Positions 15,123 through 62,176 of a stretch of DNA of 64,000 nucleotides are shown piece after piece. The stretch is taken from assembly GCA_021810505.1 (NCBI GenBank), contig JAJZIR010000006.1, positions 62,001 through 126,000 of the forward strand, read 5' to 3'. How positions within the stretch are numbered: the stretch's first letter is position 1; every line of letters begins with the position of its first letter. Both the position numbers and the translations under genes were made by a program. The DNA comes from a bacterium. GTDB lineage: Bacteria > Deinococcota > Deinococci > Deinococcales > Deinococcaceae. The notes under the pieces are model-generated. The model did not search any database. It worked only from the letters and a program-made list of their open reading frames with translations, and was not told where the DNA came from.

Positions 15123-15821
15123 TCAGCGGGGCTGCAAAGGCAGGGGTCCAGCGCGCAGCGAGGAGTTTTCTAGCGCCACCCTAGCCCTCCTGACGTGCTC
15201 GCGCATCTCGCTCTCAGCCCGCTCCCCGTTACCGGCCGCGACCGCTTGGGCGATGTTCTGGTGTTCTAGGAAAGACTGCAGCAGGCCGCGCTCCGGGAGC
15301 AGCGCCGAGGTGGGGATCAGCATGCGGATCAAGCCCGCCGAGGTCTCGGCGATCTGCTGAAGCCGGGGGTGGGCCGACGCCTCCCAGAGCGCCCGGTGAA
15401 AGGCGATATCCAGATCGCCGTAGGTGTCGGGCCTCGGGGACTCCGAATCCACCTCGACCCGCATCGCCGCCAAAATCACCTCCAGCCGAGCCGCCAGAGC
15501 GGGTCCGGTACGCTCGGCCGCCAGGCGCGCCGAGAGCCCTTCTAGGACCTCGCGCAGGCGGTAGATCTGCCCGACGTCCTCGGCGGTCACTTTGGGAACC
15601 CGGTAACCGCGGTGCGGGATCGCCTGCACCAGGCCCTCCCGCTCCAGAGCGCTGAGGGCTTCCTTGATCGGAGTGGGCGATAGGGCCAGCTGCTCCGCCA
15701 AGATCCGCACGATCAGCTTGCTGCCCGGTTCCAGCTGGCCGGACAGGATGGCCGAGCGGAGCCGCCAGTAGGCCTCCCGGCTCAGGGTAGTCCGGGTCAG
15801 GCCGCTGATCGGCTGGCTCAC
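15123..15821 (-). CDS. GntR-family (FadR/FCD type) transcriptional regulator
   Basis: A 232-residue regulator. An N-terminal winged helix has AYWRLRSAILSGQLEPGSKL and the recognition-helix region LSPTPIKEALSALEREGLV. The C-terminal FCD domain has candidate metal or ligand His/Asp residues in DLDIAFHRALWEASAHPRL and in EHQNI. FCD proteins of this class commonly sense organic acids. It is transcribed away from suyA, with a shared promoter region holding a perfect inverted repeat, so it very likely controls the downstream sulfonate/sugar operon. GTG at 15821 is chosen because TACACT lies 6 bases upstream; a TTG six codons earlier is possible. Confidence 0.88.
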   Translation of the reverse strand: MSQPISGLTRTTLSREAYWRLRSAILSGQLEPGSKLIVRILAEQLALSPTPIKEALSALEREGLVQAIPHRGYRVPKVTAEDVGQIYRLREVLEGLSARLAAERTGPALAARLEVILAAMRVEVDSESPRPDTYGDLDIAFHRALWEASAHPRLQQIAETSAGLIRMLIPTSALLPERGLLQSFLEHQNIAQAVAAGNGERAESEMREHVRRARVALENSSLRAGPLPLQPR

Positions 15822-15827
15822 AGATTC

Positions 15828-15856
15828 AGTGTAGAACAAAGCTCTTGACAGGTCAA
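15828..15856 (-). promoter_or_regulatory. promoter of the GntR-family gene
   Basis: On the minus strand TTGACC (15851-15856), a 17-base spacer, TACACT (15828-15833), then GAATCT and the GTG start. This is a near-consensus sigma-70 promoter in leaderless configuration. Its -35 box abuts the -35 box of the divergent suyA promoter. Confidence 0.68.
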
Positions 15857-15898: not shown

Positions 15899-16216
15899 GT
15901 GGCACATCGTGCTCTGATTCACCGCGCCCAGGATGACGTCGCCGTCGCCGTCGCCGATCTGGAACCCGGGGAGAGGCTGGAAATCCCCTGCCAGGACGGC
16001 AGCCAAACACAGCGGGTCACCGCCGTCCAAGCCATCCCGCTCGGCCACAAGTTGGCCCTACGCGACCTGCCCGAGGGGCACGAAGTCCTCGAGTACGGCC
16101 AAGCCGTCGGCGTCACCACCGCCCCTATCCGCCAGGGCGAACACGTCCACGTCCACAACCTGCGGTCCAAGCGCTGGGGCAAGAGCGTGGCCGGTCAAGC
16201 CAGCCAAGCCAGCTAG
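15899..16216 (+). CDS. suyA: SAF-domain small subunit, SuyA-like (sulfolactate sulfo-lyase alpha) of the UxaA/GarD family
   Basis: 105 residues forming a single SAF domain, which is the N-terminal part of full-length altronate dehydratase UxaA. PLGHKLALRDLPEGHEVLEYG and GEHVHVHNLRSKRW are the conserved stretches. The HVHNL-x-KRW ending resembles SuyA more than the N-terminal part of UxaA. With SuyB it would eliminate sulfite from (R)-sulfolactate to give pyruvate. The alternative is a split altronate dehydratase, but the neighbours (two sulfolactate-type dehydrogenases) favour SuyA. It is followed 32 bases later by suyB. Confidence 0.75.
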   Translation: MAHRALIHRAQDDVAVAVADLEPGERLEIPCQDGSQTQRVTAVQAIPLGHKLALRDLPEGHEVLEYGQAVGVTTAPIRQGEHVHVHNLRSKRWGKSVAGQASQAS

Positions 16217-16248: not shown

Positions 16249-17403
16249 ATGCCCGAACTCACCGGATACGTCAGGCCAAACGGACGCGTCGGACTCCGCA
16301 ACCACGTCGCCATCCTACCCGTGGACGATCTCTCCAACGCTGCGGCGGAGGGGGTCGCCCGGCTGATCCAGGGCTGCCTACCCCTCAGCCACCCCTACGG
16401 TCGCCTGCAGTACGGCGAAGACCTGGATTTGACTTTTCGCACCCTCAGCGGGCACGGGCACAACCCCAACGTCTACGGCACGGTAGTCATCGGGATCGAA
16501 CCCAACTGGACTGACCGGATCGCCGGCGCGATCGCCGCGGCCGGAACTCCGGTAGAGGCTTTCTCGATCGAGCGGTCGGGGGATCTCACCACCGTCCAGC
16601 GCGCCAGCCGGGCAGCGTACCGGTTCGTGCAGGAGGCCAGCTCGCAGAGCCGGGAGGCGGTCTCCGCGCGCGACCTGGTCCTCTCGATCAAGTGCGGCGA
16701 ATCCGATCCCACCCTGGGGCTGGCCGGAAACCCGGCGCTGGGACGGGCCGTCGACGCGCTGATCGACCAGGGGGCCTCGGTCATCTTCGGCGAGACCAGC
16801 GAGCTCACCGGTGCGGAGCAATTGATCGCCGAGCGCTGCAGCAGCCCGGATCTCCGGGCCAGCTTCGAGCGGATCTACCGGGACTACGTCGACTTCATCG
16901 AGCAGCAGGGGGCGAACCTGCTGGGCTCGCAGCCCACCGAAGGCAACATCCGCGGTGGGCTCTCCACCATCGAGGAGAAGGCCCTGGGGAACATCGAAAA
17001 GACTGGGCACCACCCGGTCTCGGGGGTGCGCGCCCCGGCTGAGGCGGTCTCCCCCGGCTCCGGTCTGGTCTTCATGGACACCAGCAGCGCCGCCGCCGAG
17101 ATGGTCACCCTCTGCGCCGCTGCCGGGAGCGTGCTGCACCTCTTCACCACCGGGCAAGGCAACATCGTGGGCCACCCGCTCATCCCGGTGATCAAGATCT
17201 CGCCCAACCCGCTGACCTGCCAGACCATGTCCGAGCACATCGACATCGATCTGAGCGCCCTGCTGCTCGGAGAGATCAGCCTGGAAAGCGCCAAAGACCA
17301 GATCTTGGAGACCTTCCTCCGCACGGCCAGGGGGCGCATGACCGCCGCGGAGCTGCTCGGACACCGGGAGTTCGTCCTCACCAAACTCTACCGCAGCGCC
17401 TGA
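16249..17403 (+). CDS. suyB: SuyB-like (2R)-sulfolactate sulfo-lyase beta subunit (UxaA/GarD C-terminal family)
   Basis: 384 residues covering the catalytic domain of the UxaA/GarD superfamily, with the SAF domain supplied by the preceding gene. The N-terminal YVRPNGRVGLRNHVAILPVD, then CGESD (about residue 148), FGETSELTGAE (about 182) and SQPTEGNIRGGLSTIEEKALG are the family's conserved, metal-binding regions. The C-terminus GHREFVLTKLYRSA and overall length match SuyB as I remember it. Reaction: (R)-sulfolactate to pyruvate plus sulfite, in the cytoplasm. A D-altronate or related aldonate dehydratase remains possible, as the superfamily is closely related. ATG at 16249 has GGAG upstream. 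Confidence 0.75.
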   Translation: MPELTGYVRPNGRVGLRNHVAILPVDDLSNAAAEGVARLIQGCLPLSHPYGRLQYGEDLDLTFRTLSGHGHNPNVYGTVVIGIEPNWTDRIAGAIAAAGTPVEAFSIERSGDLTTVQRASRAAYRFVQEASSQSREAVSARDLVLSIKCGESDPTLGLAGNPALGRAVDALIDQGASVIFGETSELTGAEQLIAERCSSPDLRASFERIYRDYVDFIEQQGANLLGSQPTEGNIRGGLSTIEEKALGNIEKTGHHPVSGVRAPAEAVSPGSGLVFMDTSSAAAEMVTLCAAAGSVLHLFTTGQGNIVGHPLIPVIKISPNPLTCQTMSEHIDIDLSALLLGEISLESAKDQILETFLRTARGRMTAAELLGHREFVLTKLYRSA

Positions 17404-17416
17404 CGTGGGGGCAGGG

Positions 17417-18349
17417 ATGATCGTCGTCAGCGAGTTCATCGATGACGCCGGGCTGCAGCGGCTCCAGCGAGGGCAGCACGCCATCGAGTACCGAGCCGAC
17501 CTCTGGAAAGACCGGGAGGCCCTGCGCGCCGGCCTGCAGCGCGCCAGCGCGCTGATCGTCCGCAACCAGACTAGGGTGGACGCCGACCTGCTGGCCTCCG
17601 CTCCCCACCTGCGGGTGGTCGGCCGCTTGGGGGTAGGGCTGGACAACATCGATCAGCAGCTGCTGGCCGGGCGCGGGATCCAGCTGTTCTACGCTCGGGG
17701 TATCAACGCGGTGGCGGTGGCCGAATACGTTCTGGCCGCTCTCCTGCACCTCTCCAGGCGGTTGGACAGCGCCTGGGAGCACGTCCGGTCTGGGGGCTTC
17801 GAGCGCAGCCGCTTCGGGGGCTTCGAGCTGGCCGGCCAGACCCTGGGCCTGCTCGGCCTAGGGGAGACCGGGCTCAGGGTGGCCCACCGGGCGAGGGCTC
17901 TGGGCATGCGGGTAATCGCCCACGATCCGGCCAGAGTACCCTGGGAAAGCGCGGTCGAGGACGGCGGGGTCGGGCTCGGGTCCCTCGAAGAGCTGATCGC
18001 CGCCAGCCGTTTCCTCAGCCTGCACCTGCCCGGACAGAGCGGTCCACCCCTGCTGGACGCCGCCAGGCTGGCGCTGCTGCCCCGAGGGAGCTATCTGGTC
18101 AACACCGCCCGCGGCGACCTGATCGACCAGACCGCGCTGGAGGCGGCGCTGAGAAGTGGCCAGCTGGCTGGCGCGGTGCTCGACGTCACCAGCCCGGAGC
18201 CGTTGCCCGGGGATCACCCGCTGCGCAGCTGCCCCAACCTCTGGATCACCCCGCACGTGGCCGGCCTGAGCAAGGAGTCGCAGGAGCGAGTCTCGCTCCG
18301 AGTCGCTGAAGGGGTGCTCGCCCTGCTGGAGCGCTGCGATGCGGCTTGA
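17417..18349 (+). CDS. slcC: D-2-hydroxyacid dehydrogenase, SlcC-like ((S)-sulfolactate dehydrogenase)
   Basis: 310 residues of the D-isomer-specific 2-hydroxyacid dehydrogenase family. The NAD-binding GLLGLGETG lies about residue 148. The catalytic Arg is in NTARGDLID (about residue 230) and the catalytic His in TPHVAGLSKES near the C-terminus. The N-terminal VSEFIDDAGL and SALIVRNQTRVDADLL match the SlcC type rather than SerA. SlcC oxidises (S)-sulfolactate to sulfopyruvate. Placed between suyB and comC it would start the inversion of (S)- to (R)-sulfolactate. I chose the ATG at 17417 (GGGGGCAGGG upstream) over a GTG four codons earlier. Confidence 0.75.
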   Translation: MIVVSEFIDDAGLQRLQRGQHAIEYRADLWKDREALRAGLQRASALIVRNQTRVDADLLASAPHLRVVGRLGVGLDNIDQQLLAGRGIQLFYARGINAVAVAEYVLAALLHLSRRLDSAWEHVRSGGFERSRFGGFELAGQTLGLLGLGETGLRVAHRARALGMRVIAHDPARVPWESAVEDGGVGLGSLEELIAASRFLSLHLPGQSGPPLLDAARLALLPRGSYLVNTARGDLIDQTALEAALRSGQLAGAVLDVTSPEPLPGDHPLRSCPNLWITPHVAGLSKESQERVSLRVAEGVLALLERCDAA

Positions 18350-19340
18350 GATCGCCGATCTCCAAAGGCAGGTCGCCCAGTTCTTTGGGGGGCTAGGGTT
18401 GAGCGAGCTGCACGCGGAGCAGTTCGCTGAAGTCCTGATCGAGGCGGAGATCGAGGGCAACCCGGGACACGGCCTTTCCAGGATCCCCATCTACGCCCGC
18501 CAGCTCAGGGCCGGCGGCCTGAACCCCAGGCCAGCCCTGCGGCTCAGCCATACCCGCCCGGGCACCCTGATCCTGGACGCGGACGGGGCTCCGGGGCCGG
18601 TCGCCCTGCACTTCGGGATGGAGGCGCTGGCGCCGCTGGCTCGGGAGCAGGGAGTAGCCAGCCTAGCGGTGCGGGCGGCTGGCCACGTGGGGGTCCTCTC
18701 CTTCTACGTCAAGAGGCTGGCCCAGCAGGGGTACGTCGCGATGGCTGCGGCCAACACGCCCCCGGCCATCGCGCCCGGCCCCGTACTGGGCACCAATCCC
18801 TTGGCGCTGGCCGCCCCCACGGGGGGTGACCCAGTAGTGATCGACAGCTCCATGTCGGTGGTGGCCAGAGGGAAAGTCCTCGAGGCCCAGCGCCAAGGCC
18901 TCCGCCTGCAGCCGGGCTGGGCAGTGGACGCGCAGGGCGAACCGACCGAGGATCCACAGCGCGCTCTGGCCGGGGCGCTGCTGCCGATCGGAGCGGGCAA
19001 GGGCTTGGCGCTGGCCTTGCTGGTCGAGATCCTGGCTGGAGCGCTGGCTGGAACCCTGCTGTCACCCGACCTGCCCCTGCCCTGGGTCGATCCCAGCCGG
19101 GCGGCTGGGCCGGGCCTGTGGCTGTTGGCCATCGACCCGGCAGCGCACGGCGATCCCACCGGCTTCGCCGCGCGGATGCAGCGCTTAGCTGGAGCGCTGA
19201 CCAGCTCGGGCGGGCGGCTACCCGGCGAGCGCCGCCGCCAGCTGGCTGAGCAGGCCAGGCGCAGCGGCAAGGAGATCGGGGACAGCTTGGCAGCTAGCTT
19301 GCGCGAGGTGGGCCTGGAGCTGCAGGGGGCGGCGCCATGA
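18339..19340 (+). CDS. comC: Ldh2/malate-dehydrogenase-family oxidoreductase, ComC-like ((R)-sulfolactate dehydrogenase)
   Basis: 333 residues of the Ldh2/ComC/ureidoglycolate dehydrogenase family. EIEGNPGHGLSRIPIYARQL near residue 36 carries the conserved substrate-binding His-Gly and Arg, HVGVLSFYVKRLA follows, and LGTNPLALAAPTG marks the NAD-binding part. ComC reduces sulfopyruvate to (R)-sulfolactate (it is named for the same step in coenzyme M synthesis). With SlcC it forms a two-enzyme racemising bypass that feeds SuyAB, as known in Chromohalobacter. It overlaps slcC by 11 bases. Malate or ureidoglycolate activity is an alternative that the neighbours do not support. Confidence 0.75.
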   Translation: MRLEIADLQRQVAQFFGGLGLSELHAEQFAEVLIEAEIEGNPGHGLSRIPIYARQLRAGGLNPRPALRLSHTRPGTLILDADGAPGPVALHFGMEALAPLAREQGVASLAVRAAGHVGVLSFYVKRLAQQGYVAMAAANTPPAIAPGPVLGTNPLALAAPTGGDPVVIDSSMSVVARGKVLEAQRQGLRLQPGWAVDAQGEPTEDPQRALAGALLPIGAGKGLALALLVEILAGALAGTLLSPDLPLPWVDPSRAAGPGLWLLAIDPAAHGDPTGFAARMQRLAGALTSSGGRLPGERRRQLAEQARRSGKEIGDSLAASLREVGLELQGAAP

Positions 19341-19437: not shown

Positions 19438-20727
19438 ATGCAACCGATCAAGTTTGTCTGCCTAGGAAGCCTCGCCCTGCTGGGAGCCAGCCTGCTGGGA
19501 GCCGGCTCGGCCAAGCAGGTCACCCTGCACGTCTTCGTCGGCGGCCAGGAGCGGCCCAACGTGATGAAGCAGCTGTTCAAGATGTACGAGCAGAGCCATC
19601 CGGGCGTGACGGTCAAGCTGCAGGTCGGCGGAGCTACTTCCAACGTCCAGCAGTCCTATCTGACCACCGTGCTCAGCTCCCACGATTCCTCGATCGACGT
19701 CCTGCTGCTGGACATCATCCGGCCAGCCCAGTACGCGGCGGCCGGTTGGGCAGTCAACCTGAACCGGTTCATGACTCCTGCCCAGAAGAGCAAGCTGCTG
19801 AGCCAGTACCTCCCGGTCTACAGCCACGCCGACCAGGTAAGCGGCAAGCTGATGGCGCTGCCAGCCTTCGCCGACGCCCAGTTCCTTTACTACCGCAAGG
19901 ACCTGCTCAAGAAGTTCGGCTTCCAGCCGCCCAAGACCTGGGGGCAGCTGCTCCACGAGGCCAAGGTCATCCTGGCCAAGGAGCACAAGACCAACCCCTA
20001 CCTGCAGGGGCTGCTCACCGCCGGAGCGCCGATCGAAGGGACGGTCTGCACCTTCTTGGTCCCCTTCTGGGGCGCAGGTGGCACCCTGGTGAACAGCCAC
20101 AACCAGGTGCAGGTCGACACGCCGGCCGGCAAGAAGGCCATGAACTTCTGGCTGACCGCGATGAAGGAGGGGGTGGTCCCTAGCAACATCGCCGGGGTGG
20201 TCACCGACGGGATGCGCCGGCAGTTCCAGAATGGGGACGCCATCTTCGAGCAGCAGTGGTCCTATGCCTGGAACCACTTTCAGAGCAGCTCCTCCAAGGT
20301 GCGCGGCAAAGTGGGTGTGGTTCCGCTACCCAGCTTCGCCGGCGGTAAACCAGCCACCTGCATCGGCGGTTGGCAGTGGGCCGTCTCCAGCTACTCCAAC
20401 CACCCCAACGCCTCCTATAAGCTGATCCGCTACCTCTCCAGCCCGCCGGCCTCCAAGTTCTTGGCCATCCACGCCTCCAATCTGCCGGTGTTCCCAGACC
20501 TCTACACCAACCCAGCGATCCTGAAAGTCGATCCCTGGTTCAAGGAAGCTCTGCCGGTGGTGCTGACCGCCCGCTCCCGCCCCATCTCGCCGCTCTACCC
20601 CAAGATCTCCGAGATCCTGCGCGACGACATGAACGCGGTGCTGGCTGGAACCATGTCGGCGGACGCGGCCCTGAAGGACATGCAATCTCGCCTGCAGGCG
20701 GTCTATGACCAGTCTGCCGCGCACTGA
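19438..20727 (+). CDS. ABC sugar transporter, periplasmic substrate-binding protein (family 1)
   Basis: 429 residues with a hydrophobic N-terminal signal (residues 1-25, ending near GAGSAKQ; no lipobox Cys). The mature part has the family-1 carbohydrate-binding fold: VTLHVFVGGQERPNVMKQL, DVLLLDIIRPAQYAAAGW, LPAFADAQFLYYRKDLL and FEQQWSYAWNHF. A strong GAGGAGG ribosome binding site precedes the ATG. It is followed after 3 bases by two permeases. Given the surrounding genes, its ligand may be sulfoquinovose or its glyceryl glycoside; this is inference. A 97-base gap separates it from comC. Confidence 0.85.
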   Translation: MQPIKFVCLGSLALLGASLLGAGSAKQVTLHVFVGGQERPNVMKQLFKMYEQSHPGVTVKLQVGGATSNVQQSYLTTVLSSHDSSIDVLLLDIIRPAQYAAAGWAVNLNRFMTPAQKSKLLSQYLPVYSHADQVSGKLMALPAFADAQFLYYRKDLLKKFGFQPPKTWGQLLHEAKVILAKEHKTNPYLQGLLTAGAPIEGTVCTFLVPFWGAGGTLVNSHNQVQVDTPAGKKAMNFWLTAMKEGVVPSNIAGVVTDGMRRQFQNGDAIFEQQWSYAWNHFQSSSSKVRGKVGVVPLPSFAGGKPATCIGGWQWAVSSYSNHPNASYKLIRYLSSPPASKFLAIHASNLPVFPDLYTNPAILKVDPWFKEALPVVLTARSRPISPLYPKISEILRDDMNAVLAGTMSADAALKDMQSRLQAVYDQSAAH

Positions 20728-20730
20728 GCG

Positions 20731-21633
20731 GTGACCAGGGTAGCGCCACCGGCGCGCAGGGGGAGGGACCTCTCCGAAGGGGCGCTGGCCTTCTGGCTGC
20801 TCCTGCCGGCCTTCTTGCTGCTGACCCTGGTGGCGCTCTACCCGGTGCTGCGGCTGCTCTACACCAGCCTGTTCCGGGTCAACCTGGTCAGCTCCCAGGC
20901 TCAGCCCTTCGTCGGCCTGGTCAACTACCTCCACGCTCTGCGCGATCCGCGCTTCTGGCAGACGGTCAGGACCACCCTGCTGCTCACCGTCATCACCGTC
21001 CCGGGGGCGCTGGTGGTCGGCCTGGTGTTGGCGCTGCTGGCCAACCTGCCCTACCGGATCCGCTGGCCGGTCCGGCTGGGACTGCTGCTGCCCTGGGCGA
21101 TGCCGCTGGTATTCTCCGGCCTGGTGTTCCGCTGGTTCTTCAACAGCCAGTACGGGGTGATCAACGACCTGCTCACCCGGATCGGCCTGAACCCGCAGCT
21201 CTGGCTGATCCGCCCCAATCTGGCCATCTTCACCATCTCGGTCGCCATCATCTGGAAGACCAGCTCCTTCATGGCGCTGGTCATCTTGGCCGGGCTGCAG
21301 ACGCTGCCCAAGGAACTCTACGAGGCCGCCCAGGTCGACGGGGCTAGGCCGGCGCAGCAGTTCTGGAGGATCACCCTGCCGCTGCTGCGGCCGGCCATCG
21401 CGGTGGCTTTGATCTTCCGGACCATCACCGCGCTGCAGACCTTCGACATCCCCTACGCCATGACCGGGGGTGGCCCCGGCAACGCCACCGAGACGATCGC
21501 CATGTACATCCGCAGCACCACCCTCAGCTACCTGAACTTCGGCTACGGATCGGCGCTGGCCGCGCTGCTGTTCGTGGTCAGCTTGGTGGTCACCCTGGTC
21601 TACCTGCGCTACCTGCGCGCGGGGCAGGAGTGA
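20731..21633 (+). CDS. ABC sugar transporter permease, MalF/UgpA type
   Basis: 300 residues, about six membrane helices. The cytoplasmic EAA loop reads ELYEAAQVDGARPAQQFWRITLP, the ATPase-docking site of the MalFG permease family. GTG start 3 bases after the binding-protein stop. Forms a heterodimer with the next protein. No ATPase gene is present, so a shared MsmK/MalK-type ATPase elsewhere is expected, as is common for this transporter class. Confidence 0.88.
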   Translation: MTRVAPPARRGRDLSEGALAFWLLLPAFLLLTLVALYPVLRLLYTSLFRVNLVSSQAQPFVGLVNYLHALRDPRFWQTVRTTLLLTVITVPGALVVGLVLALLANLPYRIRWPVRLGLLLPWAMPLVFSGLVFRWFFNSQYGVINDLLTRIGLNPQLWLIRPNLAIFTISVAIIWKTSSFMALVILAGLQTLPKELYEAAQVDGARPAQQFWRITLPLLRPAIAVALIFRTITALQTFDIPYAMTGGGPGNATETIAMYIRSTTLSYLNFGYGSALAALLFVVSLVVTLVYLRYLRAGQE

Positions 21634-22484
21634 GCGCCCCAGCCCGCCGCGGCCGGCGCAGCCAGCTGCCGCTGCGGTTAGGTATCTGGATTGCCGGGCT
21701 GTTGGTGCTGCTCAACGGCATCATCCCGCTGGGCTGGATGCTGCTCACCTCGCTCAAGACCTCCGCCGAACTCAACCAGCTGCCCATCACCTACCTGCCT
21801 CAGGCTCCCACCCTGGCCAACTACGGCGACGTCTTCTCGCAGCAGCCGATGCTGCGCTACCTGCTCAACAGCCTGATCGTGGGGCTCAGCGCCACCGTGC
21901 TCTGCATCTGGATCGGCACCATGGCCGGCTACGCCCTGGCCAGGCTGAAGCTGCGGCGCAGGAACCTCCTCCTCTCGCTGCTCATCGGCCTCTCGCTCTT
22001 CCCCACCGTGACCATCCTGGTCCCGCTGTTCCAGGTCATGCGCAGCGTCGGACTGCTGAACACCTACCCGGCGCTGATCCTTCCCTACACCGCCCTCTCG
22101 CTGCCGGTGACCATCCTGGTGCTGATGAGCTTCTTCAGCGGCATCCCCAGAGACCTGGAGTCGGCCGCGATGGTCGACGGCTGCACCCGCTTGCAGGCGC
22201 TGTGGCGGGTGGTAGTCCCGCTGGCCGCGCCCGGAGTGTTCACCGCGGCGATCCTGGCTTTCGTCAACTCCTGGGATGAGTTCCTTTTAGCCCTCTCGCT
22301 CACCACCGCTCAGTCGATGCACACCGCCCCAGTCGGCATCACCCTGTTCGAAGGGGAGTTCGCCTTCCCCTGGAGGCTGATTTCAGCGGCGCTGGTGGTG
22401 GCGATGATCCCCATCACGGTGATGATCGTGGTCTTTCAGGAGCGGGTGGTCAGCGGGTTGACCACCGGCGGCCTGAAGGGCTGA
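21630..22484 (+). CDS. ABC sugar transporter permease, MalG/UgpE type
   Basis: 284 residues, six membrane helices. EAA loop: DLESAAMVDGCTRLQALWRVVVPLAAPG. The C-terminal ERVVSGLTTGGLKG is typical of MalG-family proteins. It overlaps the MalF-like gene by 4 bases and is followed 5 bases later by the isomerase-like gene, which ties transport to catabolism in one transcript. Confidence 0.88.
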   Translation: MSAPARRGRRSQLPLRLGIWIAGLLVLLNGIIPLGWMLLTSLKTSAELNQLPITYLPQAPTLANYGDVFSQQPMLRYLLNSLIVGLSATVLCIWIGTMAGYALARLKLRRRNLLLSLLIGLSLFPTVTILVPLFQVMRSVGLLNTYPALILPYTALSLPVTILVLMSFFSGIPRDLESAAMVDGCTRLQALWRVVVPLAAPGVFTAAILAFVNSWDEFLLALSLTTAQSMHTAPVGITLFEGEFAFPWRLISAALVVAMIPITVMIVVFQERVVSGLTTGGLKG

Positions 22485-22489
22485 CCGAG

Positions 22490-23821
22490 GTGATCCCCCT
22501 GAACACCGCTCCGCTGCGGGTCGCACTGGTCCCGCTGATCCGCCCGCTCTTCCGCGGCGCCCGGCTGGGCCTGGACCGCTCTGCCCTCTCCGAGCTGAGC
22601 CCGCTGCAGGGGAAGCTCGGCATCGCCCTGGAAGCTTTCTCGCCGGTGACGGACGCGGCAGAAGCCCAAGCCGCCAGAGAACGGTTGCTGGCCTCCCCTC
22701 CGGACCTGCTGCTGGTGCTCTACGTGACCTTCGCGACCAGCGACCTGCTGCTGCCGCTGCTGAGCTCCGGCCTCCCCGCAGCCCTCTGGGCGCTGCCGGA
22801 AGCTTGGGAAGAAGGACCTCTCCCCCAGAATGCGCTGTGCGGCCTCAACCTGGGCCTCTCGCTCGATCACCCGGGGCCGGTCAAGTGGATCTACGGGGCT
22901 GCCAGCGATCCCAGGGTGCACCGCGCGCTGCAGGTCACCGCCGGAGCGCTGCGGGCCAGGCAGCTGCTGACCCGGGGGAAGCTGCTCTGGCTGGGTGGGC
23001 CGGCACCCGGTTTCGACGCCTTCTCGGCCCTGCCCGACTTCGGCCTCCAGGTCGAACGGGTGGATCACGCGCCGCTCTGGGAAGCCCTGAGCCAGGTGGA
23101 CCGGGATCAGGTCGAGCAGCTCCTCGCCGAAGCGGAGCCGGTCCAGGACCAGCAGGCCGAGCGCTCGCTGATCGCCCTGGAGCTGGCCTTGCTCCGGTTG
23201 AGCCACGGCTACGACGGCGTAGCGCTGCGGGAGTGGCCGGAGATCCCCGACCGGCTGGGGCTGATGCCCTACCGCAGCGTGTCCAGGCTGGCCGAGGCGG
23301 GACTCATCTGCGCCACCGAGGGGGACTTGCTGGGGCTGGCCTCCATGCTGGCCCTGCAGCGGGTGGGCGGCACCCCCCCCTTGCTGCTCGATCTGGTGCA
23401 CCTGAGCGAAAAGGGGCTGATGGTCTGGCACGCCGGCGAGGCCGCCCCCAGCTGGCGGGAGCCGGGGAGCGCGCTGCGGGTGCTGCCGCACTTCAACCGC
23501 GGCCTGCCGGCCATGCACGACCTCACCCTGCGCTCCGGCCCGGTGAGCGGGCTGCGGCTACTCCCCAGGGCCGCCGCGGTCTACGGCGGCCGGCTGAGTG
23601 GCCAGCGCGGCTTCGACGGCGACGCTGGCTGGCTGGCGGAAACCTCCTGGTCCGGCGAATCGCTCAGCCCGGAGCAGTTCCTGACCAGCTGGCTCAACCG
23701 CCGGCTTCCCCACCACCTGCCGCTGATCGCCGGCGAACATCAGGAAACCCTGCTGGAACTCTGCGACTGGCTGAGCCTGCCGGTCCTCCCGGCTAGCTGC
23801 GGGCGGACGCTGATCCGGTGA
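22490..23821 (+). CDS. L-fucose/L-arabinose isomerase-family protein, candidate sulfoquinovose isomerase
   Basis: 443 residues. The C-terminal half has the isomerase signature: CATEGDLLGLASMLALQRVG, DLVHLSEKGLMVWHAGEAAP, where the Glu and His are expected metal ligands. The N-terminal half (PDLLLVLYVTFATSDLLLPLL) matches the Rossmann-like part of the family. These Mn-dependent enzymes interconvert aldoses and ketoses. As I recall, members of this family act as the sulfoquinovose-to-sulfofructose isomerase in variant sulfoglycolysis pathways that lack YihS. Being followed directly by a kinase and a LacD-type aldolase fits that role. Ordinary sugar isomerase activity cannot be excluded. Confidence 0.7.
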   Translation: MIPLNTAPLRVALVPLIRPLFRGARLGLDRSALSELSPLQGKLGIALEAFSPVTDAAEAQAARERLLASPPDLLLVLYVTFATSDLLLPLLSSGLPAALWALPEAWEEGPLPQNALCGLNLGLSLDHPGPVKWIYGAASDPRVHRALQVTAGALRARQLLTRGKLLWLGGPAPGFDAFSALPDFGLQVERVDHAPLWEALSQVDRDQVEQLLAEAEPVQDQQAERSLIALELALLRLSHGYDGVALREWPEIPDRLGLMPYRSVSRLAEAGLICATEGDLLGLASMLALQRVGGTPPLLLDLVHLSEKGLMVWHAGEAAPSWREPGSALRVLPHFNRGLPAMHDLTLRSGPVSGLRLLPRAAAVYGGRLSGQRGFDGDAGWLAETSWSGESLSPEQFLTSWLNRRLPHHLPLIAGEHQETLLELCDWLSLPVLPASCGRTLIR

Positions 23822-24672
23822 AACTGGTCTGCCTGGGATGGACCTGCCTGGACCAGCGGCTGCAGGTGGCCAGCTTCCCGCCCTGCTCCAGCCGCAGCGA
23901 GGTGTTGGGTTTCCGCTGGGCCGTGGGCGGCCCAGCAGCGGTGGGGGCCCTGGCTGCAGCGCGGCTGGGCGGCCAGGTCAAGCTGCTCTCCCGGAGGGCC
24001 GACGATCCGGTGGGGGCGCAGCTGGCCACCCTGCTGGCCGGGGAGGGGGTCGAGGCCCAGTTCAGCCTAACCCGGGGCGGCGAGAGCCCGGTAAGCGCCG
24101 TGCTGACCGTCCCGGGCGGAGAGCGCTACATCTTCCGCTACCGCGGCCGGCTCGGGGAGCAGGCCGATTGGAACCCGAGGGAGGCGCTGGCTGGAGCCGA
24201 CGCCGTCTTGATCGACCAGCGCTGGCCAGCCGCCGCCCTACCCCTGGCCGACGCCGCCAGGGAGCGCGGCGTCCCGGCGGTGCTGGACCTGGACCGGGAC
24301 GAGCTGGCTGGCTGGGAGCTGGCTGCACGCTGCAGCCACGTGATCGCCTCCGAGGAGCTGGCTCGCGCGCTGGGCGGGGTGGGAGCGACCTTGGAGCGGA
24401 TCGCGAGCCTGGGCGCCTGGGCCGCGGTCACGCTGGGCGAGCGAGGGGTGGTCTGCGCGGAGGGCCTCTACCCCGCTCACGCCGTGGAGGCCAGGGACAG
24501 TACCGGAGCCGGCGACGTGTTCCACGGGGCTTTCACCTGGGCGCTGGCCGGCGGATACTCCGAGGCGGCGGCCCTGCGCCTGGCCAGCGCCGCCGCCGCG
24601 CTGCACGTCCAGAACGGTCACCCCCAAGACCACGCAGCGGCCCTGGCCTTGCTGCGCTCGAGAGGAGAATGA
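23818..24672 (+). CDS. PfkB-family sugar kinase, candidate sulfofructose kinase
   Basis: 284 residues with the PfkB/ribokinase fold. GGPAAVGALAAARLGG is the first signature (sugar binding) and RDSTGAGDVFHGAFTWALAGG the second, with the catalytic Asp in GAGD and the anion hole. GAGDVFHGAF recalls YihV, the 6-deoxy-6-sulfofructose kinase. The GTG start overlaps the isomerase stop (GTGA). It would use ATP to make sulfofructose-1-phosphate for the next enzyme. A general fructose- or tagatose-type kinase is the alternative. Confidence 0.75.
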   Translation: MKLVCLGWTCLDQRLQVASFPPCSSRSEVLGFRWAVGGPAAVGALAAARLGGQVKLLSRRADDPVGAQLATLLAGEGVEAQFSLTRGGESPVSAVLTVPGGERYIFRYRGRLGEQADWNPREALAGADAVLIDQRWPAAALPLADAARERGVPAVLDLDRDELAGWELAARCSHVIASEELARALGGVGATLERIASLGAWAAVTLGERGVVCAEGLYPAHAVEARDSTGAGDVFHGAFTWALAGGYSEAAALRLASAAAALHVQNGHPQDHAAALALLRSRGE

Positions 24673-25658
24673 TGCTCACAGCCGGAAAATCTAGGGCGCT
24701 CGCGCGGCTCTCCGACGGACAGCTGCGCTTCTTCGCCGTCGCCATCGACCAGCGACCGCCGCTGATGGACCTGGTGCGCCGGGCTGTCGGCGACCTCGCC
24801 GACGAGGAGTTGGAGGGCCGGGTCCGCGCGCTCAAAGGCCTGCTGGCCGAGACCTTATCCGACCTGGCCAGCGCCGTCCTGATCGATCCCCGCTACGGCC
24901 TGCCCACCGCTCTGCCCAGGGTGCCGCGCGAGACCGGCCTGCTGCTCACCTTGGAGCACCACCGCTTCGAGGAGCGCGGCGGATTCCGCCTGAGCGGCCT
25001 GATCCCTGGCTGGTCGGCCGAGCGGGCGGTGGCCGCCGGGGCGGACGGCCTGAAGCTGCTGGCCTGGCACAGGCCGGAGGCGCCCGCCGAGATCACCGAG
25101 CAGCAGGTCGCGCTGGTGCGCCGCGTCGGAGAAGCCTGCCGCCAGCTGGACCGCGCCTTCGTGCTGGAGCTGCTGCCCTACCCGCTGCCCGGCGAGAGCC
25201 CGGAGAGCTACCGCCGCAAGCTCCGCGCCCTCTCTCAGGATATCCTCGACCCTTTCGCCGACCCGGGCCTAGGCGTCGATCTCTACAAGCTGGCTCTCCC
25301 GGTGGCAGCCGACTCGGTGGCGGACTGGGGCGGGGACGGGCCCAGCCTGGCCGAGCTGGAGGGAGATCTGCGCGCTTATGGGAGGCTCCCAGCTCCCTGG
25401 CTGCTACTCTCCGGCGGTCTGGACGCCACCCAATTCGCGCAGGCCCTAGCCGCTGCGCTGCGGGCCGGGGCCAGGGGGTACCTGGCCGGGCGGGCGGTAT
25501 GGCTGGAGCCGCTCTCCGGCTACCCCGATCTGATCGCCTGCCGACAGGCGCTGCTGTCTAGGGGTAGGCGGACCTTGCAGCAGCTCAGCGATCAGCTGGC
25601 GATCCTGCCGCCACAGCAGCTCGAGACCGACTGGGTGCAAGCCGGGGTGGGCGGATGA
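24672..25658 (+). CDS. class I aldolase of the LacD/YihT family, candidate sulfofructose-1-phosphate aldolase
   Basis: 328 residues, the length of LacD (tagatose-1,6-bisphosphate aldolase) and slightly longer than YihT. The Schiff-base Lys is in VDLYKLALPV (about residue 215). FAVAIDQRPPLMDLVRRA and DGLKLLAWHRPE are typical of the family, and SGGLDATQFAQAL is the phosphate-binding loop. It should cleave a ketose-1-phosphate into DHAP plus an aldehyde; in this context the aldehyde would be sulfolactaldehyde. Of two adjacent ATGs I use the second (24672) because GAGGAG lies too close to the first. It overlaps the kinase stop. Confidence 0.75.
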   Translation: MLTAGKSRALARLSDGQLRFFAVAIDQRPPLMDLVRRAVGDLADEELEGRVRALKGLLAETLSDLASAVLIDPRYGLPTALPRVPRETGLLLTLEHHRFEERGGFRLSGLIPGWSAERAVAAGADGLKLLAWHRPEAPAEITEQQVALVRRVGEACRQLDRAFVLELLPYPLPGESPESYRRKLRALSQDILDPFADPGLGVDLYKLALPVAADSVADWGGDGPSLAELEGDLRAYGRLPAPWLLLSGGLDATQFAQALAAALRAGARGYLAGRAVWLEPLSGYPDLIACRQALLSRGRRTLQQLSDQLAILPPQQLETDWVQAGVGG

Positions 25659-27739
25659 TCCCCCACCCGCTCAAGGCACCGCCGCTGAGGACCGGGGCGC
25701 TCAGCGCCCGCGGAAACCGCCTGGAGCTGGAAACCGAGGCCGGGACGCTCAGCGCCTCCTGCTACGCCCCGGGAATCTTCCGCCTACAGTTAGGAGGATC
25801 CCAGGGTCCCGACTACCAGATCCTCAGCGGCGCAGAGGTGGTTGCCCCCTGCCAGGTAGAGGTCGCCGGGATCCGGGGGGCGCTGCGCAGCGGCGGCCTG
25901 AGCCTGGAGCTGTGCGCCGAACCTTTCGGGCTGCGGCTGCTCCGAGGGGAGCGCACTCTGCTGGAGAGCAGCACCGACCAGCACATCAGCGGCCGGCTGC
26001 GGGTTCCCCGTCTGATCTCGGAGGGCCAGCTCAGCGGGCTGGCCCTGGCCCTGGGCAGCGGAGAGGCGGTCTATGGGCTGGGCGAGCGCTTCGGGCCGCT
26101 CAACCACCGCGGCGAGCTGGTGGAGTGCTGGGACAGCGACGCCCTGGGGGTCAACTCCGGGCTGGCCTACCTGAACGCCCCCTTCGCCTGGAGCCCGTCC
26201 GGCTGGGGGGTGTTCGCCCACACCCCAGCCCGCAGCTGGCACGGGGTGGGCTACCCGAGCTGGTCCCACCGCAGCTACTTGCTGCTCTGCGAGGAGCCGG
26301 GCTTCGACCTCTTCTTGCTGGCCGGAGACCCCTGCAGGCTGCTGGAGCGCTACAGCTACCTGACCGGGCGCCCAGGGCGGCTCCCGAGCTGGAGCTACGG
26401 GGTGTGGTGGAGCCGCTGCTACTACCGAGACGCCGCCGAAGTGCTGGAGGTCGCTGAGGAGCTGCGCCGGCGAGCGATTCCCGCCGACGTGATCACCCTA
26501 GACGGTCGGGCCTGGCTGGAGGTGCGCACCCGCTGCACCCTGGACTTCGACCGGTCCCGCTACCCGGACCCAGCCGGTTTCGCCGCCCAGCTAAGGGAGC
26601 TGGGGTTTCGGCTCTGCGTCTGGGAGTACCCCTACGTCTCCACCGAGAACCCGGAATATCCGGAGCTGGAGCAGCTGGGCTACTTCCTGAAAGACGGCTC
26701 CGGGGCGACCTACATCTACCGTTGGGACCAAGAGCCCTTCGGAGCGCTGCTCACCCCCCTGCCGGACTCCGGCCTGATCGACTTCACCAACCCCGCCGCA
26801 GCGGCCTGGTGGCAGCAGCGCCACCAACGGCTCTGGGATCTGGGCGTGGACGTGATCAAGACCGACTTCGGCGAGCAGATCCCCGAGGACTGCCGGGCTA
26901 GCAACGGGGACCGGGGCAGCCGGCTGCACAACGCCTACCCGCTGCTCTACAACCGGGCAGTCCACCAGGTCAGCCCCCAGGGCCTAGTCTTCGCCCGCAG
27001 CGGCTACAGCGGCTCGCAGCGCTACCCGCTGCAGTGGGGGGGCGACCCCCAAAGCGACTGGGAAGGGCTGGCCGCCAGCGTCCGCGGCGGCCTCTGCTGG
27101 GGGATGAGCGGGGGCGCCCACCAGACCCACGACGTGGGCGGCTTCTACGGGCCACCCCCAGACCCCGAGCTGTACGTCCGCTGGACCCAGGCCGCCGCCC
27201 TGGCCTCCCAGATCCGCTTTCACGGCACCAGCCCCAGGGAGCCCTGGTTTTTCGGAGAGGAGGCCGAACAGATCGTGCGGCGCTGGCTCAGGCTGCGGAT
27301 CCGGCTGCTCCCGCAGCTCCAGCTACTGGGTGAGGAGGCCTCTAAGAACGGCCTGCCGCTGCTGCGCGCCATGCCGCTGGCCTTCCCGGGGGACCGGTTG
27401 GCGGCCAGCTTCGAGCAGCAGTTCCTGCTCGGAGACAGCCTGCTGGTCGCCCCGGTCACCCGCCCGGGCGGCCGGGTCTCGCTCTTCCTGCCCGCAGGCG
27501 GCTGGTTCGACCTGTGGAGCGGCCAGCGCCTGCAGGGACCGCTGCAGCTGCAGCAGCAGGTCCCCCTGGAGCGCATCCCCCTGTACGGGCGGGAGGGAGG
27601 CCGCCTGCTGCTGGGTCAGCCGGGCGACCGGTCTCCGGCCGGCTCGGCGGAGCAGGTGGTCTGGCGTTTCGGTGGCCAGCCAGCCGCAGGGGAACTGCTC
27701 TGGGATGGCCAGAGCAGCTGGCCGCTTCTGGAAGAATAG
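25655..27739 (+). CDS. GH31 glycoside hydrolase, candidate sulfoquinovosidase or alpha-xylosidase-like
   Basis: 694 residues. The catalytic nucleophile is Asp404 in IKTDFGEQIP and the acid/base is Asp493 in HDVGGF. Overall it looks like the YicI branch (alpha-xylosidase), with an N-terminal beta-sandwich (1-235), the barrel (240-580) and a C-terminal sandwich. In the loop where YihQ sulfoquinovosidase holds the sulfonate with an Arg and a Trp, this protein seems to have Arg291 but Cys294 (alignment from memory). No signal peptide is visible, so it should act in the cytoplasm on imported glycoside. It overlaps the aldolase stop by ATGA. The exact substrate is open. Confidence 0.83.
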   Translation: MIPHPLKAPPLRTGALSARGNRLELETEAGTLSASCYAPGIFRLQLGGSQGPDYQILSGAEVVAPCQVEVAGIRGALRSGGLSLELCAEPFGLRLLRGERTLLESSTDQHISGRLRVPRLISEGQLSGLALALGSGEAVYGLGERFGPLNHRGELVECWDSDALGVNSGLAYLNAPFAWSPSGWGVFAHTPARSWHGVGYPSWSHRSYLLLCEEPGFDLFLLAGDPCRLLERYSYLTGRPGRLPSWSYGVWWSRCYYRDAAEVLEVAEELRRRAIPADVITLDGRAWLEVRTRCTLDFDRSRYPDPAGFAAQLRELGFRLCVWEYPYVSTENPEYPELEQLGYFLKDGSGATYIYRWDQEPFGALLTPLPDSGLIDFTNPAAAAWWQQRHQRLWDLGVDVIKTDFGEQIPEDCRASNGDRGSRLHNAYPLLYNRAVHQVSPQGLVFARSGYSGSQRYPLQWGGDPQSDWEGLAASVRGGLCWGMSGGAHQTHDVGGFYGPPPDPELYVRWTQAAALASQIRFHGTSPREPWFFGEEAEQIVRRWLRLRIRLLPQLQLLGEEASKNGLPLLRAMPLAFPGDRLAASFEQQFLLGDSLLVAPVTRPGGRVSLFLPAGGWFDLWSGQRLQGPLQLQQQVPLERIPLYGREGGRLLLGQPGDRSPAGSAEQVVWRFGGQPAAGELLWDGQSSWPLLEE

Positions 27740-27761: not shown

Positions 27762-28763
27762 ATGAACAGCGCGGCGCTGGACAAGCTGCGCCGCTGGATG
27801 GAAGCCCAGGGGTTTCCCCGCTTCGCGGTCAGCACCCCGGCCAACTTCGCCTGGCTAACTGGGGGCGACAACACCGTGGTGACCAACCAGAGTGCGGCCT
27901 GGCTGGAGGTGGAGCCGGCGGCGGTCATCTTGTGTACCTCGGCGATCGAGGCGAGCCGGCTGCGCGAGGAAGAGCTGGATGGCCCGGGCGCCCAGCTGCA
28001 GGTCTGGCCCTGGCACCACCCGGCCGCCCTGCCCTCGCCCAATGACTTGGAGCACGACCTCACCGCCCTGCGGCTGGTCCTCTCACCGGGCGAACAGGAC
28101 CAGCTCAGGGAGCTGGGGCGGGATTGCGCGAGGCTGCTCGGAGACCGCCTGCGGGCCGCGCACCCGGAGCTGAGCGAGCGCCAGCTGGCTGGCCAGTTAG
28201 CCAGCCAGCTGATGGCGGAGGGAATCCGCCCGCTGGTCCTCTTGGTGGCCGGCGAGCGGCGGGTCTTCCGCTACCGCCACCCGCTGCCCAAAGCCGAACC
28301 CTTGGGCCGGCTGGCCCTGGTCGGGCTGTGCGGCCAGCGCGCCGGCTTGATCGTCTCGGTGAGCCGGCTGCGCAGCTTCGGGCACCCGGGGGCGGCCGCG
28401 CGCAACGCAGTGGTCCTGGAGGTGGAGCGGGCCGCCCTGGAGCTGAGCCGGCCCGGGAAAACCCTGGGTGAGGTGGCCAGGGCGATGCGGGCTGCCTATC
28501 AGGAGCGGGGCTATCCCGAGGCCTTCGAGGAACACCACCAGGGGGGACTGGGCGGCTACCGGACCAGGGAGGTACTGGCCACCCCGCAGCAGCCGACCCG
28601 CCTGGAGGCCGGCATGGTGGTGGCCTGGAATCCCAGCCTGCCCGGAGCCAAGGTCGAAGACAGCTTCCTGATCGGCCAGCACGGCTTGGAGGAGCTGACC
28701 ACCGACCCAGCCTGGCCCAGCACCGAGGTGGGTGGGAGGCGGCGGCCGCTGGTCTTGGAGTAG
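27762..28763 (+). CDS. M24-fold (creatinase/aminopeptidase P-like) protein lacking most metal ligands
   Basis: 333 residues, last gene of the operon, 22 bases after GH31 with AAGGAG before its ATG. N-terminal creatinase-like domain (1-125), then the pita-bread M24 domain. Of five metal ligands in active M24 peptidases (Asp, Asp, His, Glu, Glu) only two can be placed: His in EHHQGGLGGYRTRE and the last Glu in KVEDSFLIG. The two Asp positions read VGLCG and IVSVSR, and the first Glu position reads AWNPSLPG. It is therefore unlikely to be a working dinuclear metallopeptidase. It may be a sugar- or small-molecule-processing relative or a binding protein; its role is unknown. Confidence 0.72.
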   Translation: MNSAALDKLRRWMEAQGFPRFAVSTPANFAWLTGGDNTVVTNQSAAWLEVEPAAVILCTSAIEASRLREEELDGPGAQLQVWPWHHPAALPSPNDLEHDLTALRLVLSPGEQDQLRELGRDCARLLGDRLRAAHPELSERQLAGQLASQLMAEGIRPLVLLVAGERRVFRYRHPLPKAEPLGRLALVGLCGQRAGLIVSVSRLRSFGHPGAAARNAVVLEVERAALELSRPGKTLGEVARAMRAAYQERGYPEAFEEHHQGGLGGYRTREVLATPQQPTRLEAGMVVAWNPSLPGAKVEDSFLIGQHGLEELTTDPAWPSTEVGGRRRPLVLE

Positions 28764-60699: not shown

Positions 60700-62130
60700 T
60701 TAGGCATAGCCCAGCTCCCCAGCTGCCGCACCCAGCGGGACCGGCTCGACCCCCAGGTTGCGGCAGACCTGCAGCAGGGCAGCGACCCAGTCTCCAGGAA
60801 CGGCGTGGACGTGGTTGGAGGGAAAGCTCTGCAAGAAGACCTCGGCGCTGGCCTCCAGCTTGGCGAAAGCGTGCGGCCAGTTGGGCTGGACCTCAGCGAT
60901 CACCTCGGCTTCCCTAGCCGGCTCTAGGCGCAGCAGCTCGGCGCGCAGCAGGTGCATGCGGTAGCGCCCATCCAGCCGCGACAGCCTGGCTAAGGTCACC
61001 GGGCCGGGTGCGGCGACGTGGAAGACGCTGGCGCCGCCGGCTGGGAAGTAGAAACCCTGGGGGTGCAACTCGACCTCGGCCAGGTTGACGGCGGGGTCTT
61101 GGCTCCGGGCCGCGAAGAAGGTAGGGTGCTGGCCGGAGTTGACCAGGTCGAAAATATTCTCTCCGAGGTAATGCCGCACGTCGGCGAAGAGGACCGGGCT
61201 GCCGCTGAGCAGGTGCAGGATCTGCATGGTCAGCGCCGCGTCCATATCCGCCTCGGTGGAGCAGATCAGGGGGGGATGCGGGCCCTCCCAGTCGTAGGGA
61301 TCGTTGAGGAAGGCCTCGGGGACGTCCATGGTGGCGTAGTGCTCGGTCAGCTCGGGTTGACCCTTAATCCCTAGGAAGTCGAGGCCCTTCTCGGCCGCGA
61401 GCTCGCGCAGGGCGTGGTAGGCCGCCACCTGGCGCTCCAATTTGGCCGGGGTGAGCTGGACACCGTCGTAGTGGACCTTCCTGACCTGGTGCTCCAGCCA
61501 GATCCGGCCCCGCTTGACCCGCTCCGGGTCCACCGCGCTGGCCCGGCGCACCACCTCCCACTGATCGATATGCTCGACGTCGACGCCGAACTGTTTGGCC
61601 CACTGGTCGGTGTTGGAGACGGCGGTGTTGATCCCGATGGACCGCCCACCGATCAAGCCGTAGGTCTGCCCCCGCAGCGCCCTGCTGGCGTGGGCAGCTC
61701 TAGCCCAGGCGTCGACCCGGGCCAATACCGCGGGCTCAGAGATCTGGCCGAAGACCCGGGTGGGCAGCAGGCCGAGCTGCTCTAGGGCACCAGCGGCGGC
61801 CAGAACGGCGACCATACCGGGTTTGGCCGGGTTGATCTGGCCGAGCAGCAGCAAAGGCCCCAACGGGAAGCGCGAGGCCACCACGCTGAACTGCGGGAAA
61901 GCCCAGACCGCGTAGTGGAAGATGGTAGCCTCGACCCCGGCCCGGGCCAGGCGCTCGGCCTGATCCCGGGCGGTCTGATTGGAGTGCACCAGCTCTCCGA
62001 GCACCAGCTCATGGCCCAGGTCGGCCAGCGCCCGCTGCAGGCGCCTCTGGAACTCTTCGAGCTCGGCGATCTGGGGATCGTGGGCGTAAGAGCGGCCGTC
62101 CGAGAAGGTGAGGACCCCGATCCTGGCCAT
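60700..62130 (-). CDS. L-fucose isomerase-family protein
   Basis: 476 residues, FucI/AraA-like. The N-terminal Rossmann part starts ARIGVLTFSDGRSYAHDP. The catalytic region has STEADMDAALTMQILHLLSG with the metal-binding Glu, and ADVRHYLGENIFDLVNSGQH with Asp and the final His. It would interconvert L-fucose and L-fuculose or a similar pair. It is shorter than E. coli FucI (591). No fuculokinase or fuculose-phosphate aldolase is present, so its place in the pathway is unclear. ATG at 62130 is chosen for its AAAGG; a LacI operator lies about 50 bases upstream. Confidence 0.8.
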   Translation of the reverse strand: MARIGVLTFSDGRSYAHDPQIAELEEFQRRLQRALADLGHELVLGELVHSNQTARDQAERLARAGVEATIFHYAVWAFPQFSVVASRFPLGPLLLLGQINPAKPGMVAVLAAAGALEQLGLLPTRVFGQISEPAVLARVDAWARAAHASRALRGQTYGLIGGRSIGINTAVSNTDQWAKQFGVDVEHIDQWEVVRRASAVDPERVKRGRIWLEHQVRKVHYDGVQLTPAKLERQVAAYHALRELAAEKGLDFLGIKGQPELTEHYATMDVPEAFLNDPYDWEGPHPPLICSTEADMDAALTMQILHLLSGSPVLFADVRHYLGENIFDLVNSGQHPTFFAARSQDPAVNLAEVELHPQGFYFPAGGASVFHVAAPGPVTLARLSRLDGRYRMHLLRAELLRLEPAREAEVIAEVQPNWPHAFAKLEASAEVFLQSFPSNHVHAVPGDWVAALLQVCRNLGVEPVPLGAAAGELGYA

Positions 62131-62176
62131 CAGCGCCTTTCCCAACCGAGATAGGCTCGGCTGGAACTGAAGGTTT

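Follow-up and report, generated by a model that had tools for sequence, protein, structure and literature searches.

A putative SqvD-like isomerase in an operon of a heat-loving Deinococcus relative that seems able to degrade sulfoquinovose down to sulfite

The open reading frame at positions 22490-23821 of the window, i.e. the whole 64,000-nucleotide stretch of contig JAJZIR010000006.1 that was analysed, in all likelihood encodes a divalent-metal (probably Mn2+) isomerase converting sulfoquinovose (SQ) to 6-deoxy-6-sulfofructose, as part of a hybrid pathway in which sulfo-EMP is coupled to the sulfolactate sulfo-lyase SuyAB. Judged from its genes, one operon of this heat-loving Deinococcus relative seems able to carry SQ degradation down to sulfite. 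SQ is preferred as the substrate because five lines of evidence converge on it: the isomerase family, the YihV-like kinase, the sulfolactate genes, the aldehyde dehydrogenase and the glycosidase. We infer the substrate, the direction, the metal and all of the enzymatic steps from homology and gene context; what the analysis itself demonstrates is which genes are present and in what order, their conservation, the fold, the kept metal ligands and the co-occurrence with homologs of SuyB and sulfoquinovosidases. Plants and algae make approximately 10 billion tonnes of SQ a year, which places it with their most abundant sulfur compounds (PMC12890257). Most described sulfoglycolytic bacteria use half of the SQ molecule and excrete a C3 sulfonate, and for one and the same cell to release sulfite as well is regarded as unusual (PMC12421959).

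The genes of the operon, in order, are:

15123-15839, minus strand: GntR/FCD regulator, divergent (PF00392 and PF07729); position shared with Meiothermus
15899-16216, plus strand: SuyA, small subunit of sulfolactate sulfo-lyase (SAF domain; 50.5% identity to the Rhodococcus koreensis small subunit)
16249-17403, plus strand: SuyB, large subunit of (R)-sulfolactate sulfo-lyase (GD_AH_C; 54.7% identity to Paracoccus versutus, 61% to Rhodococcus koreensis)
17417-18349 (start at 17405 or 17417), plus strand: 2-hydroxyacid dehydrogenase, SlcC-like (S)-sulfolactate dehydrogenase (PF02826)
18339-19340, plus strand: Ldh_2-family dehydrogenase, ComC-like (R)-sulfolactate dehydrogenase (NCBIfam L-sulfolactate dehydrogenase, 197 bits)
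19438-20727, plus strand: ABC sugar-binding protein of a predicted sulfosugar importer (PF01547; syntenic)
20731-21633, plus strand: ABC sugar permease 1 (PF00528; syntenic)
21630-22484, plus strand: ABC sugar permease 2 (PF00528; syntenic)
22490-23821, plus strand: putative SqvD-like sulfoquinovose isomerase with AraA/FucI fold (443 aa, GTG start; NCBIfam SftI, 63 bits)
23818-24672, plus strand: predicted PfkB-family sulfofructose kinase, YihV-like, 284 aa (PF00294; best solved structure YihV)
24669-25658, plus strand: class I aldolase of the LacD/YihT family, predicted 6-deoxy-6-sulfofructose-1-phosphate aldolase (PF01791; NF009498, 238 bits)
25655-27739, plus strand: GH31 glycosidase of the YicI lineage, candidate sulfoquinovosidase (clade-specific R285 and R293; catalytic Asp pair kept)
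27762-28763, plus strand: M24 metallopeptidase-family protein (PF00557; conserved next to the isomerase genes in three lineages of Deinococcota)

The isomerase and its relatives

The isomerase gene starts 5 bases after the end of the permease gene and overlaps the kinase gene by 4 bases. Homologs with 50-56% identity and identical gene order are found in Meiothermus, Calidithermus and Thermaceae, so the 443-residue open reading frame is a conserved coding gene and not a chance ORF. The earlier note, made from the sequence alone, had placed this gene directly before a kinase and an aldolase, as is the case in the cluster, and had considered the E. coli isomerase YihS to be absent. The latter holds for the cluster. 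Elsewhere the genome contains two AGE-superfamily genes, but these have only 20-22% identity to YihS, and neither has a sulfosugar context. A search of this genome for SqvB/DUF4867 gave no match, nor did its control, so that it does not speak for absence.

No Pfam family matched the isomerase protein, in agreement with its earlier description as diverged, and neither did the AraA or FucI models of Pfam and NCBIfam. Its only match to a curated family (NCBIfam) was to NF048012, sulfoquinovose isomerase SftI, with 63 bits (E 2e-17), which is far below the curated cut-off of 700 bits and counts against the SQ reading. Relatives from the same clade scored 69-139 bits with this model, and five tested copies located beside YihQ scored 176-247 bits, also below 700. 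As it falls below the cut-off, the protein is called SqvD-like here and is not filed as SftI. A search of PDB with the single sequence gave chance matches only; a profile search with the isomerase family found AraA. The AlphaFold (AF2) model (pLDDT 95.7, pTM 0.94) matched L-arabinose isomerases in the PDB best with Foldseek (E 2e-22, TM approximately 0.80), followed by L-fucose isomerases (TM 0.72-0.76), and no other fold matched convincingly. The earlier assignment as FucI/AraA-type is thus correct at the level of the fold, which in the model is slightly nearer to AraA than to FucI.

In an alignment of 38 isomerase sequences E104, W249-P250, E277-G278-D279, D301, W313-H314, G316 and H408-H409 were invariant, including the putative Mn ligands E277, D301, H314 and H408/H409. 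By motif and profile alignment, not by superposed coordinates, E277, D301 and H408/H409 correspond to E337, D361 and H528 of E. coli FucI and to the AraA ligands. In FucI-type isomerases the open-chain sugar is bound to Mn2+ through its O1 and O2, and a proton is moved via an ene-diol; the same mechanism has been proposed for SqvD with SQ (PMC9594981). The residues required for this chemistry are present in the protein.

The tree, built from a set without any biochemically proven SqvD sequence, places the isomerase nearest to copies from Thermaceae and Armatimonadota, on a long terminal branch (0.95 changes per column). This Deinococcota/Armatimonadota clade is separated with 100/100 support from a clade linked to YihQ, and substrate identity is therefore not carried over to the isomerase by close homology. 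Distant homologs (22-25% identity) from Halanaerobium, Clostridia, Spirochaetes and Lokiarchaeia have a YihQ-type sulfoquinovosidase within a few kb. These neighbouring sulfoquinovosidases share 34-57% identity with E. coli YihQ and kept Q262, Q288 and W304 in 7/7 cases examined by residue. The viral contigs that were scanned contained no relatives of the isomerase.

Five Lokiarchaeota MAG contigs (L096, L097, L102, L103 and L113) carry an SqvD-like isomerase adjoining a YihQ-type sulfoquinovosidase with 42-43% identity to E. coli YihQ, which possibly reflects SQ use in Asgard archaea or, alternatively, a binning error. On a plasmid of Paracoccus seriniphilus (L050, 1095-8113) an SqvD-like isomerase (27% identity) is found with a tagatose-type aldolase, the dihydroxyacetone kinase proteins DhaK and DAK2 and an aldehyde dehydrogenase, without a PfkB kinase; here an unphosphorylated ketose is possibly cleaved and dihydroxyacetone phosphorylated afterwards. 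The window itself contains a second L-fucose-isomerase-family gene (60700-62145, minus strand), more typical yet diverged, with Pfam FucI domains. It belongs to a separate sugar cluster, whose other genes encode two ABC systems, two SDRs and one member each of the enolase superfamily and the DHDPS family.

Neighbouring genes and their distribution

Among solved structures the kinase matched the sulfofructose kinase YihV best (102 bits, 35% identity over 272 aa), ahead of ribokinases (60 bits). Of the presumed sulfonate residues of YihV, R138 is kept, K27 is replaced by R and N109 is not kept, observations to which little weight is given. The aldolase exceeds the cut-off of NF009498 (184 bits). 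Its matches in PDB were a DUF2090 protein (204 bits), LacD (115 bits) and YihT (63 bits); it is nearer to tagatose-bisphosphate aldolases than to YihT, which counts against the SQ reading. A 606-aa ORF at 23838-25658 in the mechanical list was rejected as an over-extension, the aldolase starting at approximately 24669.

The sulfo-lyase genes combine an SAF small subunit with a GD_AH_C large subunit and are homologous to the Paracoccus SuyAB locus, which identifies them as SuyAB. The SuyB homolog of Paracoccus versutus has as neighbours a GntR gene, the gene for the small subunit and one of the sulfate-exporter family; that of Rhodococcus koreensis is clustered with aldehyde dehydrogenase, YihU-like, SlcC-like and ComC-like genes. 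The SlcC-like protein of the window has 40% identity with the hydroxyacid dehydrogenase of the Rhodococcus koreensis cluster and the ComC-like protein 38.5% with its Ldh gene product; the score of the ComC-like protein with the L-sulfolactate dehydrogenase model, its best NCBIfam match, is below the cut-off of 500 bits. That genes for both dehydrogenases lie next to SuyAB agrees with the stereochemistry, i.e. conversion of (S)- to (R)-sulfolactate, the form which SuyAB cleaves to pyruvate and sulfite (PMC9594981). The divergent GntR/FCD regulator likely controls the operon.

No gene for a sulfolactaldehyde dehydrogenase was found in the window operon, which counts against the SQ reading. The best candidate, on another contig of the same genome, has 57% identity with an SSADH-type enzyme of Deinococcus peraridilitoris and may be an ordinary SSADH. 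On the Deinococcus peraridilitoris plasmid an SSADH-type aldehyde dehydrogenase is clustered with an importer, isomerase, PfkB, aldolase, GH31 and an AEC transporter. In Arthrobacter an SSADH-type enzyme, GabD, has been assigned to sulfolactaldehyde (PMC8873060).

The order from GntR to aldolase is kept in Meiothermus, Calidithermus and one Thermaceae MAG. Among 111 Deinococci genomes the isomerase was present in 44 and SuyB in 25, and all 25 SuyB genomes were isomerase-positive; in 23 of the 25 the two genes lie on one contig, 6.0-6.7 kb apart. The hypergeometric P for this co-occurrence, 3e-13, ignores relatedness, is inflated by shared ancestry and is to be read loosely. The pattern is dominated by one bacterial family, a point against the SQ reading.

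Related clusters vary in composition. An Armatimonadota cluster (L083, 3208-13544) has GntR, SuyAB, aldehyde dehydrogenase, importer, isomerase and the same GH31, without a linked kinase or aldolase. In Trueperaceae (L036, L037 and L040) Gfo/Idh/MocA oxidoreductases are found beside the isomerase, most clusters lacking SuyAB, and in L036 and L040 a 2-hydroxyacid dehydrogenase gene is on the opposite strand. The M24 protein shares 37-42% identity with the cluster copies of D. peraridilitoris (L047, 2601-3662) and Trueperaceae (L040, 13765-14895) and has no evident sulfosugar role.

Candidate sulfoquinovosidases

Near the isomerase cluster of Meiothermus taiwanensis there is a homolog of the GH188 NAD-dependent sulfoquinovosidases, which matched the SqgA structures 8QC2 and 8QC3 with 218 and 210 bits, the next dehydrogenase scoring 71. 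It keeps, at exact spacing, the residues R166, L170 and K172 with which ArSqgA binds the sulfonate (PMC10755693), as well as E189 and H193. The homolog was present in 22/22 isomerase-positive genomes of Meiothermus/Calidithermus type (the genera of numbered genomes being inferred from matching contigs), in some of them on a different contig. The Trueperaceae Gfo/Idh/MocA genes were considered as GH188 and rejected, other dehydrogenases being better matches than SqgA.

The GH31 of the window operon is not of YihQ type: it scored 439 bits with the YicI model and 206 with the YihQ model, and none of the five YihQ positions Q262, Q288, R301, W304 and Y508 is kept (R, D, gap, gap and F, respectively), the latter again counting against the SQ reading. 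A search of the window genome for a YihQ-type sulfoquinovosidase gave weak GH31 matches only, the best being this same protein. It belongs to a clade of six sequences, supported with 100/100 and forming the sister group of YicI, with members from the window, D. peraridilitoris, an Armatimonadota MAG and three Thermaceae-family genomes (the members besides the window being L033, L047, L083, L135 and L136). With YicI alpha-xylosidase it shares the lineage (support 99/98), the catalytic Asp pair, D306 and K414. In contrast to YicI, the gene is linked to sulfolactate genes, C307-F308 has become G-R(-A) in the clade, W315 has become R and one residue is inserted. C307 and F308 are presumably the determinants of xyloside/glucoside preference at C6. 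R285 (at YicI F308) and R293 (at YicI W315) are invariant in 6/6 clade members. The AlphaFold model of the GH31, made with 12 sequences, was poor (pLDDT 68).

Over the whole class this GH31 was found in 4 Deinococci genomes, all of them isomerase-positive. The window's family and the Thermaceae family together have 25 isomerase-positive genomes; among these it was present in 3/3 without GH188 and in 1/22 with GH188 (P 0.0017, ignoring relatedness), the simplest reading of which is that GH31 does the job of GH188. The operon GH31 may thus replace GH188 where the latter is absent, as a candidate second GH31 sulfoquinovosidase lineage. A wider proposal is made tentatively, as somewhat short of an even chance: that an independently evolved, YicI-derived second GH31 sulfoquinovosidase lineage, gripping the sulfonate with R285 and R293, has replaced GH188 in those Deinococcota without it and, together with the isomerase, YihV-like kinase and SuyAB/SlcC/ComC, forms an undescribed single-operon desulfonating sulfo-EMP pathway.

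Proposed pathway, rival substrates and known systems

In the proposed pathway, the ABC importer would take up SQ or SQ glycosides, SQ being freed by GH31 in the window or by GH188 in Meiothermus. The isomerase would convert SQ to 6-deoxy-6-sulfofructose by AraA/FucI ene-diol chemistry, the YihV-like kinase would phosphorylate this to sulfofructose-1-phosphate and the LacD/YihT-type class I aldolase would cleave the product, yielding DHAP and (S)-sulfolactaldehyde. The latter would be oxidised to (S)-sulfolactate by an aldehyde dehydrogenase whose gene lies outside the operon; SlcC and ComC would convert this via sulfopyruvate to (R)-sulfolactate, which SuyAB would split to sulfite and pyruvate. 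The earlier note had suggested that a FucI/AraA-fold isomerase takes the place of YihS in a variant of sulfoglycolysis, and the SftI match, fold and ligands, YihV-like kinase, sulfolactate genes, GH188 and YihQ neighbours support this. Isomerases of SqvD type, and hybrids of SqvD with sulfo-EMP, are already described (PMC9594981).

The main rival to SQ as substrate is sulfofucose (6-deoxy-6-sulfo-D-galactose), since AraA is the nearest fold and the aldolase resembles LacD more than YihT. Comparably to the action of AraA on D-galactose, it would be isomerised to sulfotagatose, and the kinase together with an aldolase of tagatose-bisphosphate type would split this to DHAP and sulfolactaldehyde, followed by the same SuyAB branch. 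Sulfofucose catabolism with SlcC, ComC and SuyAB is known in Paracoccus, by an ED route, but sulfofucose is rare (PMC12421959). The kinase is nearest to the SQ-pathway enzyme YihV, the distant isomerases adjoin the SQ-specific YihQ and GH188 homologs occur in all isomerase-positive Meiothermus/Calidithermus-type genomes, and sulfofucose is thus considered an unlikely substrate.

It is still less probable that the enzyme acts on an ordinary, non-sulfonated pentose or 6-deoxyhexose released by an alpha-xylosidase-like GH31, its gene lying by chance among those for sulfolactate, kinase and aldolase. The YicI-like GH31, the AraA/FucI fold and an aldolase family that includes tagatose enzymes would all suit such a sugar, but the tight co-occurrence of isomerase and SuyB over the class, the YihV-like kinase, GH188 beside the orthologous cluster and the lack of a match to any curated AraA or FucI model speak against it. 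The long terminal branch might also suggest a catalytically dead or regulatory paralogue; with every metal-ligand position invariant, a confidently predicted model and an operon without another isomerase candidate, this appears very improbable. SQ is retained as the most probable substrate.

The enzyme class is already known (SqvD) and each element of the pathway has precedents. What is new, as far as could be found, is the diverged isomerase clade in Deinococcota/Armatimonadota, the host phylum, the combination of the isomerase with a YihV-like kinase, a class I aldolase and SuyAB/SlcC/ComC in one operon, and the unusual candidate GH31. No publication linking Meiothermus or Deinococcus to SQ breakdown was found in a search that fell short of the whole literature, subscription journals being mostly uncovered. 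If the reading is true, a complete desulfonating SQ route exists in thermophilic Deinococcota, cultivable Meiothermus type strains among them, with a deep new branch of SQ isomerases missed by current curated models and perhaps also a third type of sulfoquinovosidase.

Compared with SqvD/SftI, the FucI-family enzymes of sulfo-TAL, sulfo-TK and sulfo-EMP2, the isomerase has the same fold, metal ligands, length (approximately 440 aa) and sulfosugar operon setting, but differs in its 22-25% identity to the YihQ-adjacent copies, its separate, fully supported clade and its SftI score, 63 against a cut-off of 700. With the E. coli sulfo-EMP pathway (YihS/YihV/YihT/YihU/YihQ) the cluster shares a YihV-like PfkB kinase and a class I LacD/YihT-family aldolase, whereas it has an AraA/FucI-fold enzyme for YihS, an ABC importer for YihO, a YicI-lineage GH31 for YihQ and SuyAB/SlcC/ComC in place of DHPS export. 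The Yersiniaceae hybrid sulfo-EMP (PMC9594981) likewise has SqvD in place of YihS; it also swaps the aldolase, for the class II SqiA, whereas the window cluster has a class I aldolase and SuyAB in the operon. Sulfo-EMP2 needs SqiK (PF00365) and SqiA (PF01116), instead of which PF00294 and PF01791 are present here. Unlike sulfo-TAL and sulfo-TK, the window cluster includes no transaldolase or transketolase gene; the extended sulfo-TAL pathway of Thermotogae and Chloroflexi (PMC9594981) also joins sulfoglycolysis to SuyAB in one cluster but uses a transaldolase where the window cluster uses a kinase and aldolase. Finally, Paracoccus wurundjeri, with its tandem of sulfofucolytic ED and SlcC/ComC/SuyAB (PMC12421959), similarly couples these sulfolactate enzymes to sulfosugar breakdown in one organism, although by an Entner-Doudoroff route on sulfofucose that proceeds without an isomerase.
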